Translations under genes and position numbers: made by a program
NCBI RefSeq assembly: GCF_020883455.1
Contig: NZ_CP086615.1
Location: 3,402,501 to 3,466,500 of the forward strand
DNA length: 64,000 nt
Direction: 5' to 3'
Origin: Spiribacter halobius
GTDB lineage: Bacteria > Pseudomonadota > Gammaproteobacteria > Nitrococcales > Nitrococcaceae
In this document: positions 56,598 through 62,144 of the stretch, in pieces
Layout of the letters: each line of letters starts with the position of its first letter
Numbering within the stretch: the stretch's first letter is position 1
Notes under the pieces: generated by a model
Databases searched by the model: none
The model's input: only the letters and a program-made list of their open reading frames with translations
What the model was told of the DNA's origin: nothing

Positions 56598-56757
56598 CCG
56601 ACTCCCCTGCGGTTGCGGTCGCCAATCAAACTTTTCAGGGTACCGCGAACCGGCGAAGGAAGGGAGCGGGGCCCAGCCACGGAAGTTCATGCCCCTGCCC
56701 CCAAGAGTCGGTTATCGTGCCGAGGCGCTCCATGGAACTGCGGCCGGCGGCAACTGC

Positions 56758-57540
56758 ATGACCTTTTTTCTCACCAAGATCCTCGGCGCGGTGCTGATGC
56801 CGCTGCCGCTGATTCTGCTCGGCCTGGTGCTGGGGCTGGGTCTGGCGGCGCTCACGCGGTGGCGTCGCTGCGGACTCGCCATCACGGCCGCCGGGACGCT
56901 CGCTCTCGCGCTGCTCTCCTGGTGGCCGGTGGCAGACCGTGTGATCGGGCCGCTGGAGTCGGCATATCCGGCCCTGGCGCCGGAAGAGCTGCCGGAGGCG
57001 GTGCCCGCGGTGATCGTGCTCGGCGCGGGCTCGGTCTGGGCACCGGAGCTGCCGGTGACGAGCCGGCTCTCCGCGACGGCGGTACGGCGGCTGACGGAGG
57101 GGGTAAGGCTCTGGCGCGAGCGCCCGGAGGCCCGCTTCGTCGTCTCCGGCTGGGGCGCGGAGCGGCCGGAGGCCGAGCTCGCCGCGGGGTTGCTGCAGGC
57201 GTTGGGCTTGCCGGCGGAGACGATCCATGCGCTTCCTCGCCCCCGCAACACGGAGGCGGAAGCCATGGCCTACGCGGCCCTGGAACTGCCCGGGCGCCCG
57301 GTGCTGGTCACCTCCGCCGCCCACATGCCACGGGCGGTGGCGGCTTTCCGGGCCCAGGGGATCGAGCCCATCCCGGCGCCGACGGATCACCGCGCCGTGC
57401 GACGGGGCTTCCACTTCCCGCGCGACTTCACGCCCCAGGCCCGGGACCTGGAAACCAGCGAGCGGGCGTGGCACGAGTACCTGGGGCGGTCGTGGGCATG
57501 GGTGCGGGGCCTGTGGGGGCAGAGCCCGACGCCCCCGTAA
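56758..57540 (+). CDS. YdcF/ElyC-type DUF218 membrane protein
   Basis: A 260-residue protein with two N-terminal membrane helices (AVLMPLPLILLGLVLGLGLA and LAITAAGTLALALLSWW) and a DUF218 domain: VPAVIVLGAGSVWAPELPVT, EARFVVSGWGAERPEAELAA, PRPRNTEAEAMAYAALELPG and RPVLVTSAAHMPRAVAAFRA. ElyC of E. coli is needed for undecaprenyl-phosphate lipid homeostasis in envelope synthesis; this is the closest characterised relative by layout. ATG 56758 is the first start before the helices. Confidence 0.9.
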   Translation: MTFFLTKILGAVLMPLPLILLGLVLGLGLAALTRWRRCGLAITAAGTLALALLSWWPVADRVIGPLESAYPALAPEELPEAVPAVIVLGAGSVWAPELPVTSRLSATAVRRLTEGVRLWRERPEARFVVSGWGAERPEAELAAGLLQALGLPAETIHALPRPRNTEAEAMAYAALELPGRPVLVTSAAHMPRAVAAFRAQGIEPIPAPTDHRAVRRGFHFPRDFTPQARDLETSERAWHEYLGRSWAWVRGLWGQSPTPP

Positions 57541-57605: not shown

Positions 57606-57685
57606 GATCGCCGCGGCTCGCGCCTCCCACGGCGGGCGGCGGTGGCTCCGGGGCCCACTGTGGGAGGCGCGAGCAGCGGCGACCT
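57606..57685. repeat. Inverted repeat GCTCGCGCCTCCCAC
   Basis: CGCCGCGGCTCGCGCCTCCC (from about 57609) and GTGGGAGGCGCGAGCAGCGG (57661-57680) pair over about 24 bases. The right half together with the adjoining Uma2 3' end is duplicated at 61861-61900. Confidence 0.65.
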
Positions 57686-57694
57686 GCCCGCAAC

Positions 57695-58258
57695 CTACTC
57701 CCAGAGCGCCCCCACCCGGAACACCGCCGCCTCGAAGGGTGCGGCACAAACCTCGTCCGCTTCCTGATACGCGGCCACGAGCTCCAAGGCGTCATCGCGC
57801 CGGTCGTACGCCTCCAGCGTCCGCTCCCGCGGATCAACAATCCACGCATACCGCACCCCGTAGCGCGCATACACGGGCATCTTCACCTCTCGGTCCCGGC
57901 TCGCCGTCGCCGGAGAGAGGATCTCGCAGACCCAGTCCGGCACTACCTCGAAGCGCTGATCCTCCGGCAACTCCGGCATGCGCTCCCGGCGCCAGCCGGC
58001 GAGGTCGGGGACCAGCACCTCGGCATTGCGCACGAAGTGGACCTCCGGCTCGATCAGGATCCACCAGCCCCCGGGGCCACCACGGCCCTTGCCGTAGGCG
58101 GGCAGCAACTCCGCGCCGAGATTGGAGCCGGCCAGGATGTGCCGCCCCGCCGGCCGCGGCTGTGTATGCAGCTGCCCGTCGATGATCTCCCCTGTCACCC
58201 CCTCAGGCAGCGCTGCGATGGCGGCGTAGAGATCCCGCATGGCGGTGGCTCCGGACAT
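57695..58258 (-). CDS. Uma2 family (DUF820) predicted endonuclease
   Basis: PD-(D/E)XK-fold protein of 187 aa. ALPEGVTGEIIDGQLHTQPR opens the fold; VLVPDLAGWRRERMPE, WVCEILSPATASRDREVKMP and YGVRYAWIVDPRERTLEAY contain the catalytic Asp, Glu and Lys positions (PD, E, K). Uma2 genes are common, often multicopy and of unknown role. ATG 58258 follows GGAGGAGG. A 3' fragment of a close paralogue is at 61898-62144, interrupted by an IS3 element. Confidence 0.88.
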   Translation of the reverse strand: MSGATAMRDLYAAIAALPEGVTGEIIDGQLHTQPRPAGRHILAGSNLGAELLPAYGKGRGGPGGWWILIEPEVHFVRNAEVLVPDLAGWRRERMPELPEDQRFEVVPDWVCEILSPATASRDREVKMPVYARYGVRYAWIVDPRERTLEAYDRRDDALELVAAYQEADEVCAAPFEAAVFRVGALWE

Positions 58259-58567: not shown

Positions 58568-61024
58568 CTACCCATCCGTCCCCGTCCGCCGCCCGGCCAC
58601 CGCGCGCAGGCGCGGCGCCGCGGCCGGGCGCATGGCCCTCGCCGGCATCTGCTCGGCGAGCCAGCGGCGCTGGAACATGGCGGCGGCGTAGACCGCGGTC
58701 ACCATCACGATCACCGTGCGGCTGGCGGGCTCGTGGATCTGGAGGGAGAGCACCAGCATGGCATGGATCGCCGCCCCGGCCCCCAGGGCCGCCAGCACCC
58801 AGGCGATGGGCCAGAGCTGCTCCCGGGCGACGGCCAGCAGCTCGCGCAGCAACAGCACGAACAACACCGCGAACAGCAGCAGCCCCGGCAGCCCGAAAGC
58901 GAGCGCCGTGGCGCCGTAGACGGATTGCAGGTTCCCATAGTCCCCGGCGCGCCGGGCCTGCTCGGGCAGACCGCCATGCCCCCACCCCGTCAGCGGCCGC
59001 TCCGCGACCCGGGTGACCGTCGCCCGCCAGAGGTCGAGGCGCTGGGCGGTGGGCGCGTGCGTACGCTCGGCGAGCGCGGCCTCGCCCCCCAGGTACAGCG
59101 CCACCGCCTGCAGCGGCTGGGCGAAGGCGTCCCGGGACGGCCCGGGATTGCCGATCACCGCCGTCCACATGCCCACGGCCAGCGCCAGCAGGAAGGCGGC
59201 CCCACCCACGAAGCCCATCCACTGCCGGCGGCTCACGCCGAACACGATGGCCGCGAGCGCGATCACCACCGCCCCGGCCAGCGCGCCGAGCCAGCCCGTG
59301 GTGTACTGCGTGCCCACCAGCACGATGACCACCGGCACCGTCATGGCGCCGAAGCCCACCAGCACCACCAGCGGCCGCCAGCCGCGCCCGAGCCGCCGCA
59401 GTCCGGCGATGATCCCGCCGAGGAGCGTGACGATCACCGCCGCGGTCACGAACCCCGTCACCGAGGGCATCCCCCAGTCCCACGGGTTGCCGAAACGCCC
59501 CGACTCCAGCGCCCGCCAGTCCGCCTGCAGGGCGAAGGCGACGCTGCCACCGGCGATGAGCGTGAGGAAGCACCAGAGCCAGTGGGAGCGCGCCCCGGCC
59601 AGCCACCATCCCACCACCAGCGAGAGCGGGCCGCTCACCCAGAGGAAGTCCCAGGCGGACGGCACGCCCTGCCCCGGCCCCAGCAGGCCGCGGAGGACGA
59701 TGAGGGCCGCGAGGGCCAGGGCCACCCAGGCGGCGGGGAGCCGGCGCAGATCGCGCCAGAGCGGCGGCAGGGCAGAGAGCGTCGCCAGCAACACCAGCGC
59801 GAACCCCATACGCACGCCCGTGAGGCCCAGGGGCAGCGAGAACAGCAGCAGGTAGACCCCGCCGAGGGCTACCCGCCGCCGCCAGCCGACCACGGGGGGC
59901 ACCAGCCAGCGGCTGACGCTCCCGGGCGCGAACGAGCGCGGCCGCCCCCCTGGCGCCTGGGAGGCCCAGCCGTGGAGGCGGCGCAGCGCGCGCATGGTCC
60001 GCCAGGCCCGGCGGATGAAGACGTAATGGGCCACGCCGACGGCCACGAGCCCCAGCGCCAGCAGCACGTCCGGCACGCCCGCCAGGGAGCCCAACACCCC
60101 CACCGCCCCGAACGCCGCCGCGACCAGGGTCAACGCGTAGCTCGTCTGCGCGACCGAGTAGCCGGCGCGCTGGAAGACGTGGTGCAGATGCTCGCGATCC
60201 GCGGCGAAGGGGCTTCGCCCCTTGACCAAGCGCCGGACCATGAGACTCAGCGTATCCACCACCGGCAGCGCCACGATCCAGGCAATGCCGGCCGGCGAGA
60301 CGCGGGCGCCGGGCAGCTGCGAGGCCTCCACCGCGAACCAGGCGATGGCGAAGCCAAGCGCCATGCTCCCGGCGTCCCCCAGGAAAACGCCCGCCTTGCG
60401 CCGCCAGGGGTTGCGCATGTTGTGGACGAGGAAGGCCGCCACCGCCGCGGCGAGCGTCAGCGCGAGCCCCGGCATCGCCTCCGCGCCGGCGAGCACGCCG
60501 GCGATGCCGAGCCACACCAGCATGACGAACGCCACACCGCCGGCGACGCCGTCGGCCCCGTCCAGCATGTTGAGCGCATTGACGAAGCCGACCACCGCCA
60601 GGAACGTCAGCGGGATGGCCCAGCCGCCCAGGTCCATCGGCGCGCTGCTGCCGGGCATGATGCCGATCGCGGCCAGCTGCATCCCACCCCAGCCCACCAT
60701 GAGCACCGCGGCCACGAACTGCGCCAGCAGCTTGCTGCCGCTGCGCAGCTCGCAGGCGTCGTCGACCACGCCGCAGACCGTGAGCAGCAGCAGGCCCACG
60801 TAGAGCGCCGCATAGGGCCGAAGGGCCACCGGCAGCAGCAGGCTCGCGACGCCGAAGCCGAGCAGCAGCCCCACGCCGCCGATCACGGGCACCGTGCCAT
60901 GGTGCTGCTTGCGCCCGCCCGGCCGGTCGACAAGCCCCAGCGCCTTGGCAGGCCGCCGCAGCGCGAGGATCGCGAGCCCGGAGAGCAGGAAGGCGGTAAG
61001 CGGCGCGAGCAGAGGAAGATTCAC
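58568..61024 (-). CDS. Fusion of a WecA/MraY-type glycosyl-1-phosphate transferase and an O-antigen ligase-like protein
   Basis: An 818-residue polytopic membrane protein. Residues 1 to about 350 are a polyprenyl-phosphate N-acetylhexosamine-1-phosphate transferase: RKQHHGTVPVIGGVGLLLGF, Asp88-Asp89 in VCGVVDDACELRSG, FVNALNMLDGADGVAGGVAF, GVFLGDAGSMALGFAIAWF and REHLHHVFQRAGYS. Residues about 385-790 are a second multi-helix domain of the Wzy_C/O-antigen ligase type, with a long periplasmic loop and LTGWGHGGLPEQAR near residue 680. The first half would start lipid-linked glycan synthesis, the second polymerise it or move it to an acceptor. Normally these are separate proteins. One uninterrupted frame; no linker stop or frameshift. 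Confidence 0.88.
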   Translation of the reverse strand: MNLPLLAPLTAFLLSGLAILALRRPAKALGLVDRPGGRKQHHGTVPVIGGVGLLLGFGVASLLLPVALRPYAALYVGLLLLTVCGVVDDACELRSGSKLLAQFVAAVLMVGWGGMQLAAIGIMPGSSAPMDLGGWAIPLTFLAVVGFVNALNMLDGADGVAGGVAFVMLVWLGIAGVLAGAEAMPGLALTLAAAVAAFLVHNMRNPWRRKAGVFLGDAGSMALGFAIAWFAVEASQLPGARVSPAGIAWIVALPVVDTLSLMVRRLVKGRSPFAADREHLHHVFQRAGYSVAQTSYALTLVAAAFGAVGVLGSLAGVPDVLLALGLVAVGVAHYVFIRRAWRTMRALRRLHGWASQAPGGRPRSFAPGSVSRWLVPPVVGWRRRVALGGVYLLLFSLPLGLTGVRMGFALVLLATLSALPPLWRDLRRLPAAWVALALAALIVLRGLLGPGQGVPSAWDFLWVSGPLSLVVGWWLAGARSHWLWCFLTLIAGGSVAFALQADWRALESGRFGNPWDWGMPSVTGFVTAAVIVTLLGGIIAGLRRLGRGWRPLVVLVGFGAMTVPVVIVLVGTQYTTGWLGALAGAVVIALAAIVFGVSRRQWMGFVGGAAFLLALAVGMWTAVIGNPGPSRDAFAQPLQAVALYLGGEAALAERTHAPTAQRLDLWRATVTRVAERPLTGWGHGGLPEQARRAGDYGNLQSVYGATALAFGLPGLLLFAVLFVLLLRELLAVAREQLWPIAWVLAALGAGAAIHAMLVLSLQIHEPASRTVIVMVTAVYAAAMFQRRWLAEQMPARAMRPAAAPRLRAVAGRRTGTDG

Positions 61025-61349: not shown

Positions 61350-61410
61350 GGCTGCGCGATTCGAAAGCGAGCGTTGTCGGGAGTTGCACGTAAACAACGA
61401 ACCGCCTCAC
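61350..61410 (-). pseudogene. 5' remnant of a DUF5615-like toxin gene
   Basis: A GTG at 61410 overlaps the DUF433 stop by 4 bases and begins VRRFVVYVQLPTTLA, matching the usual DUF5615 start (M-x-FLVDxQLPxxLA). The similarity ends after about 17 residues, where the frame continues into unrelated sequence. DUF5615 proteins are PIN-like and normally follow DUF433 genes; here only the first codons survive. Called from pattern and position. Confidence 0.45.
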
Positions 61411-61634
61411 GCCACATGGACGAGGCGGTGATCACTCTGACGCGCCGCGAACTCCAAGGCGGCAGTAATGTCTTCCGGCTCCAGAAACGGGTAGTCAGCC
61501 AGGATCTCTTCCCGACCGGCACCCGCCGCCAAAAGCTCCAGCAAGCCCGTGACTCGAATCCTCAATTCACGAACGCAGGCGCGAACACCGCACTGGTCGC
61601 GATTGACGGTAATCCTGTGGAACTCACTAATCAG
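61407..61634 (-). CDS. DUF433 antitoxin-like protein
   Basis: About 75 residues: ISEFHRITVNRDQCGVRACV, RELRIRVTGLLELLAAGAGR and EEILADYPFLEPEDITAALE match the DUF433 (VapB45-like helix-turn-helix) pattern of ITxxPxxCxGxPxIRGxRIxV and EILxDYPxLExEDIxAxL. No ATG is available; CTG 61634 or ATT 61631 overlapping the HicB-like stop would give coupled translation. RACVRE replaces the usual KPCIRG. Its usual partner, a DUF5615 toxin, is reduced to a stub downstream, so this may be an orphan or decaying antitoxin. Confidence 0.65.
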   Translation of the reverse strand: MISEFHRITVNRDQCGVRACVRELRIRVTGLLELLAAGAGREEILADYPFLEPEDITAALEFAARQSDHRLVHVA

Positions 61635-61792
61635 TTCATCTCCACCGCTTCCAGATGGAGCTCAATCGCTTCCTGGATATTCCTCAGGGCTTCCTCCCGC
61701 GTGTTTCCCTCGCTGATGCATCCCGGCAAGCAGGGCACGTAGGCCATAAAGCCGCCCTCTTCGCTTTTATCCAGAACCACACGAAGCTTCAT
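61631..61792 (-). CDS. HicB-like antitoxin (short type)
   Basis: A 53-residue protein that starts MKLRVVLDKSEEGGFMAYVP and continues CLPGCISEGNTREEALRNIQ EAIELHLEAVE, the HicB/COG1598 RNase H-like fold. It lacks a C-terminal DNA-binding domain, as in many short HicB proteins. AGGGACGGGTAT precedes ATG 61792. No HicA toxin is adjacent; the gene is coupled instead to a DUF433 gene by a 4-base overlap. Confidence 0.75.
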   Translation of the reverse strand: MKLRVVLDKSEEGGFMAYVPCLPGCISEGNTREEALRNIQEAIELHLEAVEMN

Positions 61793-61897
61793 ATACCCGT
61801 CCCTGCATAGCTTGCACGGGCAACACGCGGATCGGGGACCGCGCCCGCGGGCTGCTGCACCCGTGGGAGGCGCGAGCCGCGGCGACCGCCCCGAAAT

Positions 61898-62144
61898 CTA
61901 CTCCCAGAGGTCCCCCACCCGGAACACCGCCGCCTCAAAGAGCGCGGCACAAACCTCGTCCCCTTCCTGATACGCGGCCATGACGTCCCAGGCGTCATCA
62001 CGCCGCTCGTACGCCTCCAGCGTCCGCTCCCGCGAATTAACGATCCACGCATACCGCACCCCGTAGCGCGCATACACGGGCATCTTCACCTCGCGGCCCT
62101 TGCTCGCCGTCGCCGGGGAGAGGATCTCGCAGATCCAAGTCGGC
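61898..62144 (-). pseudogene. Truncated Uma2 family gene, cut by the IS3 element
   Basis: The last ~80 codons of a Uma2 gene (WICEILSPATASKGREVKMP, VYARYGVRYAWIVNSRERTL and EAAVFRVGDLWE). It is a near copy of the 3' end of the gene at 57695-58258, including about 35 bases of repeat after the stop. Similarity ends exactly at the IS end (62145); the 5' part is missing and does not reappear on the far side of the IS. Confidence 0.85.

Follow-up and report, generated by a model that had tools for sequence, protein, structure and literature searches.

WecA is the UDP-GlcNAc:undecaprenyl-phosphate GlcNAc-1-phosphate transferase. Pathways for surface glycans all draw on one small supply of undecaprenyl phosphate, and for this reason it matters how the cytoplasmic first step of surface-glycan synthesis is matched to the periplasmic steps, which is the question that the fusion protein described here touches. 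Initiating enzymes are known control points of such pathways (PMC12802240). For the E. coli O-antigen ligase WaaL, residues R215, R288 and H338 are named as important for function (PMC3643930), and a variant of a relative, PglS H324A, in which the equivalent of the catalytic histidine is replaced, serves as an inactive control (PMC12800693). In the enterobacterial common antigen complex, one Wzy-type protein sits inside a Wzz octamer (PMC10030265). The component parts of the protein studied here are of known kinds. However, a literature search, which covered few subscription journals, returned no description of a fusion between a WecA-type enzyme and a ligase-fold domain with a lost ligase site, and within this coverage it agrees with the sequence-only reading of the locus, which knew of no characterised protein of this kind.

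The window analysed here is a stretch of 64,000 nucleotides from Spiribacter halobius, and all positions are counted from its first letter. The fusion gene lies on the minus strand at positions 58,568 to 61,024, with a GTG start codon at 61,024 and the stop codon at 58,568-58,570, and codes for a protein of 818 amino acids in one uninterrupted frame; the source genome is complete and consists of a single contig. The sequence-only reading had placed the gene correctly but gave no strand, and the plus-strand translation of the same segment is nonsense. No sigma-70-like promoter was found near the fusion gene. A Pfam search with the 818-residue protein returned exactly two families, PF00953 (Glycos_transf_4) and PF04932 (Wzy_C), both above their cut-offs, and in an AlphaFold2 model of the full chain (mean pLDDT 79.9) an MraY fold is followed by a complete WaaL fold. 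The profile search of both halves, the structure prediction and the homologue survey, all of which the sequence-only reading had called for, bear out its description of a single polypeptide in which a WecA/MraY-type transferase is followed by a ligase-like membrane domain, a form that is also kept in relatives.

Full-length fusions with 36-51% identity are encoded in at least nine other genomes, seven of which belong to the same order (G003, G005, G010, G012, G014, G023 and G035), the remaining carriers being G141, from another order, and Halomonas gemina; a match in an Ectothiorhodospiraceae MAG seems to be the same as the locus L006. In addition, a shortened C-terminal half is found in five loci in four genomes of one genus, with proteins of 666-720 amino acids that retain the first part of this half but lack the Wzy_C loop. 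Free-standing transferases are encoded by other members of the order. When 83 transferase halves were placed in a tree, all 15 sequences from fusions grouped in one clade (SH-aLRT 96.8), which suggests a single origin of the fusion. The sequence-only reading had itself raised the objection that a sequencing or assembly error might have joined two neighbouring genes. As the same fused frame is open in independent genomes, one of them from a different order, and as the fused sequences form a single clade, it is due neither to chance nor to such an error, which we regard as practically ruled out. In two samples that probably overlap, one of 369 genomes from the class and one of 398 from the phylum, the fusion was carried only by G141 and by members of the family; the phylum sample yielded no further fusion, and in the order of G141 it was found in G141 only. 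The fusion is thus rare outside its home order, and its patchy spread there could be the result of transfer or loss. As a separate observation, three proteins from other genera of the same order (L024, L025 and L026) are WecA-type transferases of 551-588 amino acids, which form their own deep branch and carry approximately 190 extra C-terminal residues with no clear Pfam family; these are possibly another fused form.

The N-terminal half of the fusion (residues 1-350, positions 59,975-61,024, minus strand) resembles WecA over its whole length, in its catalytic motifs and in its MraY-superfamily fold. PF00953 was matched by residues 73-233 (E 5.7e-34, 117.9 bits against a cut-off of 27), and a fold search with the AlphaFold2 model recovered an MraY-like fold for residues 1-315 (Z 29-31). 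The WecA profile TIGR02380 was matched by residues 10-349 with 245.2 bits, below its curated cut-off of 326.05, as is also the case for free-standing relatives such as L014. The N-terminal half therefore appears to be a relative of WecA, whereas a strict identity with the GlcNAc-specific E. coli type is not supported by this score, and, unlike WecA, the fusion has a second membrane domain of 440 residues. The motifs that the sequence-only reading had pointed out are all present, namely DD at residues 88-89, NMLDGADG at 152-159, GDAGSM at 216-221 and HLHH at 279-282. All ten full-length fusions share residues D88, D89, D155, D158, D217, H279, H281 and H282 without exception, and the one motif deviation recorded is a lysine in place of N152 in L008. 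The first active site is thus intact, and we infer that this half is active as a polyprenyl-phosphate HexNAc-1-phosphate transferase acting on undecaprenyl phosphate. Apart from MraY, the genome of the window codes for no initiating transferase with this fold other than the fusion. Similarly, in nine of 12 fusion genomes only one other PF00953 gene is present, which we take to be MraY.

A partly basic linker (residues 351-378, positions 59,891-59,974), which was modelled with low confidence (pLDDT below 50 at residues 355-373), leads into the C-terminal half (residues 379-790, positions 58,655-59,890, minus strand). PF04932 was matched by residues 562-719 (positions 58,868-59,341, minus strand) with a score of 39.4 bits (cut-off 31.7; E 6.4e-10); this cut-off is also passed by four relatives, while several others fall below it. 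Residues 379-788 matched the WaaL structure 7tpg with a Z-score of 22.3 (362 residues aligned, rmsd 4.5), and when a profile of the fusions was compared with one of 16 free-standing ligases, the result was 99.8% over 393 columns. Given these two results, the C-terminal half is a whole ligase-fold domain rather than a mere set of hydrophobic helices, and the assignment of the last approximately 400 residues to a Wzy_C/O-antigen ligase membrane domain in the earlier reading holds. The next fold match was FtsW (Z 14). The resemblance to the SEDS proteins RodA and FtsW (Z 10-14) is distant and far weaker than that to WaaL, and the sequence profile is Wzy_C and not SEDS. A fold search against viral models gave one partial, uninformative match, and the model of a shortened form (A4) was too low in confidence to be used (mean pLDDT 57.7).

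The C-terminal half shares with WaaL (PDB 7tpg and 7tpj) and PF04932 not only the fold and the profile, but also the second of the important arginine residues and the RP-GxG region. In contrast to WaaL, however, it sits behind an initiating enzyme and lacks the first arginine and the catalytic histidine. When the WaaL structure was matched with a profile of free-standing ligases, the three invariant residues of the profile fell on R191, R265 and H313, as counted from the alignment, and these are the same set as R215, R288 and H338 of the E. coli protein. While a search of solved structures with a single free ligase sequence found no match, this profile did match the WaaL structure. In the fusion protein encoded in the window, the three sites are occupied by T575 (positions 59,300-59,302; R191 in 7tpg, R215 in E. 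coli), R662 (59,039-59,041; R265, R288) and Q700 (58,925-58,927; H313, H338), all on the minus strand, and hence the first arginine and the histidine are lost and the second arginine is kept. The first arginine is absent from all ten full-length fusions, the second is present in all ten, and the histidine is found in one, whereas among 59 free-standing Wzy_C proteins both arginine residues are present in 59/59 and the histidine in 57/59. The free-standing set was drawn from relatives and the class, and one fusion fragment (L008) was removed from the original 60 rows. The contrast between the two groups is consistent and concerns residues of known importance, although the fusions form one clade and their counts thus reflect one or a few events and not independent losses. 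The exception is the protein from Halomonas gemina (L032), in which the histidine is kept and the first arginine is gone, indicating that the residues were lost in steps.

The sequence-only reading had proposed that both halves are active enzymes, which would tie initiation to ligation or polymerisation in one chain. For this to be the case, the C-terminal half would need to use its remaining arginine together with an unusual base. The complete WaaL fold, the Wzy_C matches that exceed the cut-off for the protein of the window and for four relatives, the second arginine, R479 and Y703, which are invariant in the full-length fusions, and the histidine of L032 are all compatible with such an activity. 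On the other hand, a search among the invariant residues of the C-terminal half in the full-length fusions for a substitute base found no invariant acid or histidine; the invariant polar residues are Y391, R479, R550, R662 and Y703, and H481 is present in nine of the ten. In addition, the Wzy_C catalytic loop is entirely missing from the shortened forms, and the genome of the window codes for separate, intact ligase-family proteins, with three other Wzy_C places, one of them an exosortase-A-type ligase. The arginine equivalent to R662 faces the pyrophosphate in WaaL. Since the fold and this pyrophosphate-side arginine remain but the catalytic pair is gone, ligation is unlikely. The residue pattern strongly points to a dead ligase site, and we consider a bifunctional enzyme quite improbable.

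If the ligase site is dead, one might suspect that the C-terminal half is a decaying passenger, that is, the product of an accidental fusion that erodes while the transferase does all the work. In line with this idea, the mean pairwise identity among the fusions is 51% for the N-terminal but only 34% for the C-terminal half, the C-terminal half has been shortened in five loci of one genus, and the dN/dS value of the closest pair of shortened forms is higher for the C-terminal half (0.32) than for the N-terminal half (0.19), values that are rough because of codon bias; between full-length fusions, the divergence is too great for such values to be trusted. However, a dN/dS value well below 1 suggests constraint. 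Moreover, none of the 15 fused loci (650-860 amino acids in total), which come from several families, has lost the open C-terminal frame, and no case of reversion to the transferase alone was found within the fusion clade. A GWWLA segment and other C-terminal residues are invariant even when the shortened forms are included. The C-terminal half thus evolves faster than the N-terminal half and yet stays open, which we read as retention for a role different from ligation; a passenger without a selected role seems unlikely to us.

We therefore think it probable that the fusion combines an active WecA-type initiator with an O-antigen-ligase-fold domain that is complete but has no catalytic activity and whose role is most likely non-chemical. 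According to this model, the N-terminal half would transfer HexNAc-1-phosphate to undecaprenyl phosphate on the cytoplasmic side of the membrane. As the fold and R662 are retained, the C-terminal half may keep lipid-linked glycan in place on the periplasmic side or attach itself to the Wzz/Wzx/Wzy machinery, and in this way could place or tune the first step of the pathway. We hypothesize that, within the Wzx/Wzy/Wzz pathway, the C-terminal half serves for docking or for sensing lipids, a proposal made because a Wzy-type protein is found inside the Wzz octamer and because initiating enzymes act as control points. The Wzz-Wzy complex is a precedent for a ligase/polymerase-fold domain docked on Wzz; in that complex, however, Wzy is a separate polymerase, whereas docking of the fusion is a proposal.

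Along with the one retained arginine, it is the gene neighbourhood on which a docking or sensing role is based. Past the right end of the window lie genes coding for a GDP-mannose dehydratase, a Wzx-type flippase, an RfaH/NusG-type regulator, a TviB-type UDP-sugar dehydrogenase and Wzz, and the fusion gene is therefore located at the margin of a locus for surface polysaccharides. Whereas Wzz is part of the same locus in the genome of the window, it adjoins the fusion in three other genomes: it is encoded directly upstream and on the same strand in G012, in G003 the fusion follows two Wzz genes and one of NusG type, and Wzz is divergently oriented in G010. The single DUF218 gene of the genome (YdcF/ElyC-like) is located at positions 56,689-57,540 on the plus strand, approximately 1 kb from the fusion gene with a Uma2 gene in between, and a DUF218 gene also neighbours the fusion in two unrelated genomes, those of G141 and Halomonas gemina. 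ElyC, a member of the DUF218 family, restrains the synthesis of enterobacterial common antigen in E. coli (PMC8609368).

More tentatively, one might speculate that the fusion is a regulator in which the dead fold of a terminal enzyme binds either Und-PP-glycan in the periplasm or the Wzz ring and reports the status of the pathway back across the membrane to the first step, all within one chain. A natural chain of an initiator and a ligase fold from which the chemistry has been removed would open such a link, be it physical or by feedback, to direct testing. There is also a consequence for annotation, as C-terminal halves of this kind can pass the Wzy_C cut-off and be named O-antigen ligases even though the active site looks dead.

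Several further observations were made in the surroundings of the fusion gene. It is flanked by a direct repeat of 282 nucleotides with 90% identity (positions 57,660-57,941 and 61,863-62,144), one unit of which belongs to the Uma2 gene on the 3' side of the fusion and the other to a 5'-truncated Uma2 copy on the other side. Upstream of the fusion gene, the minus-strand segment 61,410-61,792 codes for a HicB-like antitoxin (61,634-61,792) and a DUF433 protein (61,410-61,628). In the polysaccharide locus, a 421-residue protein (L192:4494-5756), which matched no Pfam or NCBIfam profile, is encoded at the place in which one would look for a Wzy polymerase. Lastly, in G014, the fusion gene and an intact Wzy_C gene (L200:7241-8896) are convergent, the latter running into the end of the former.
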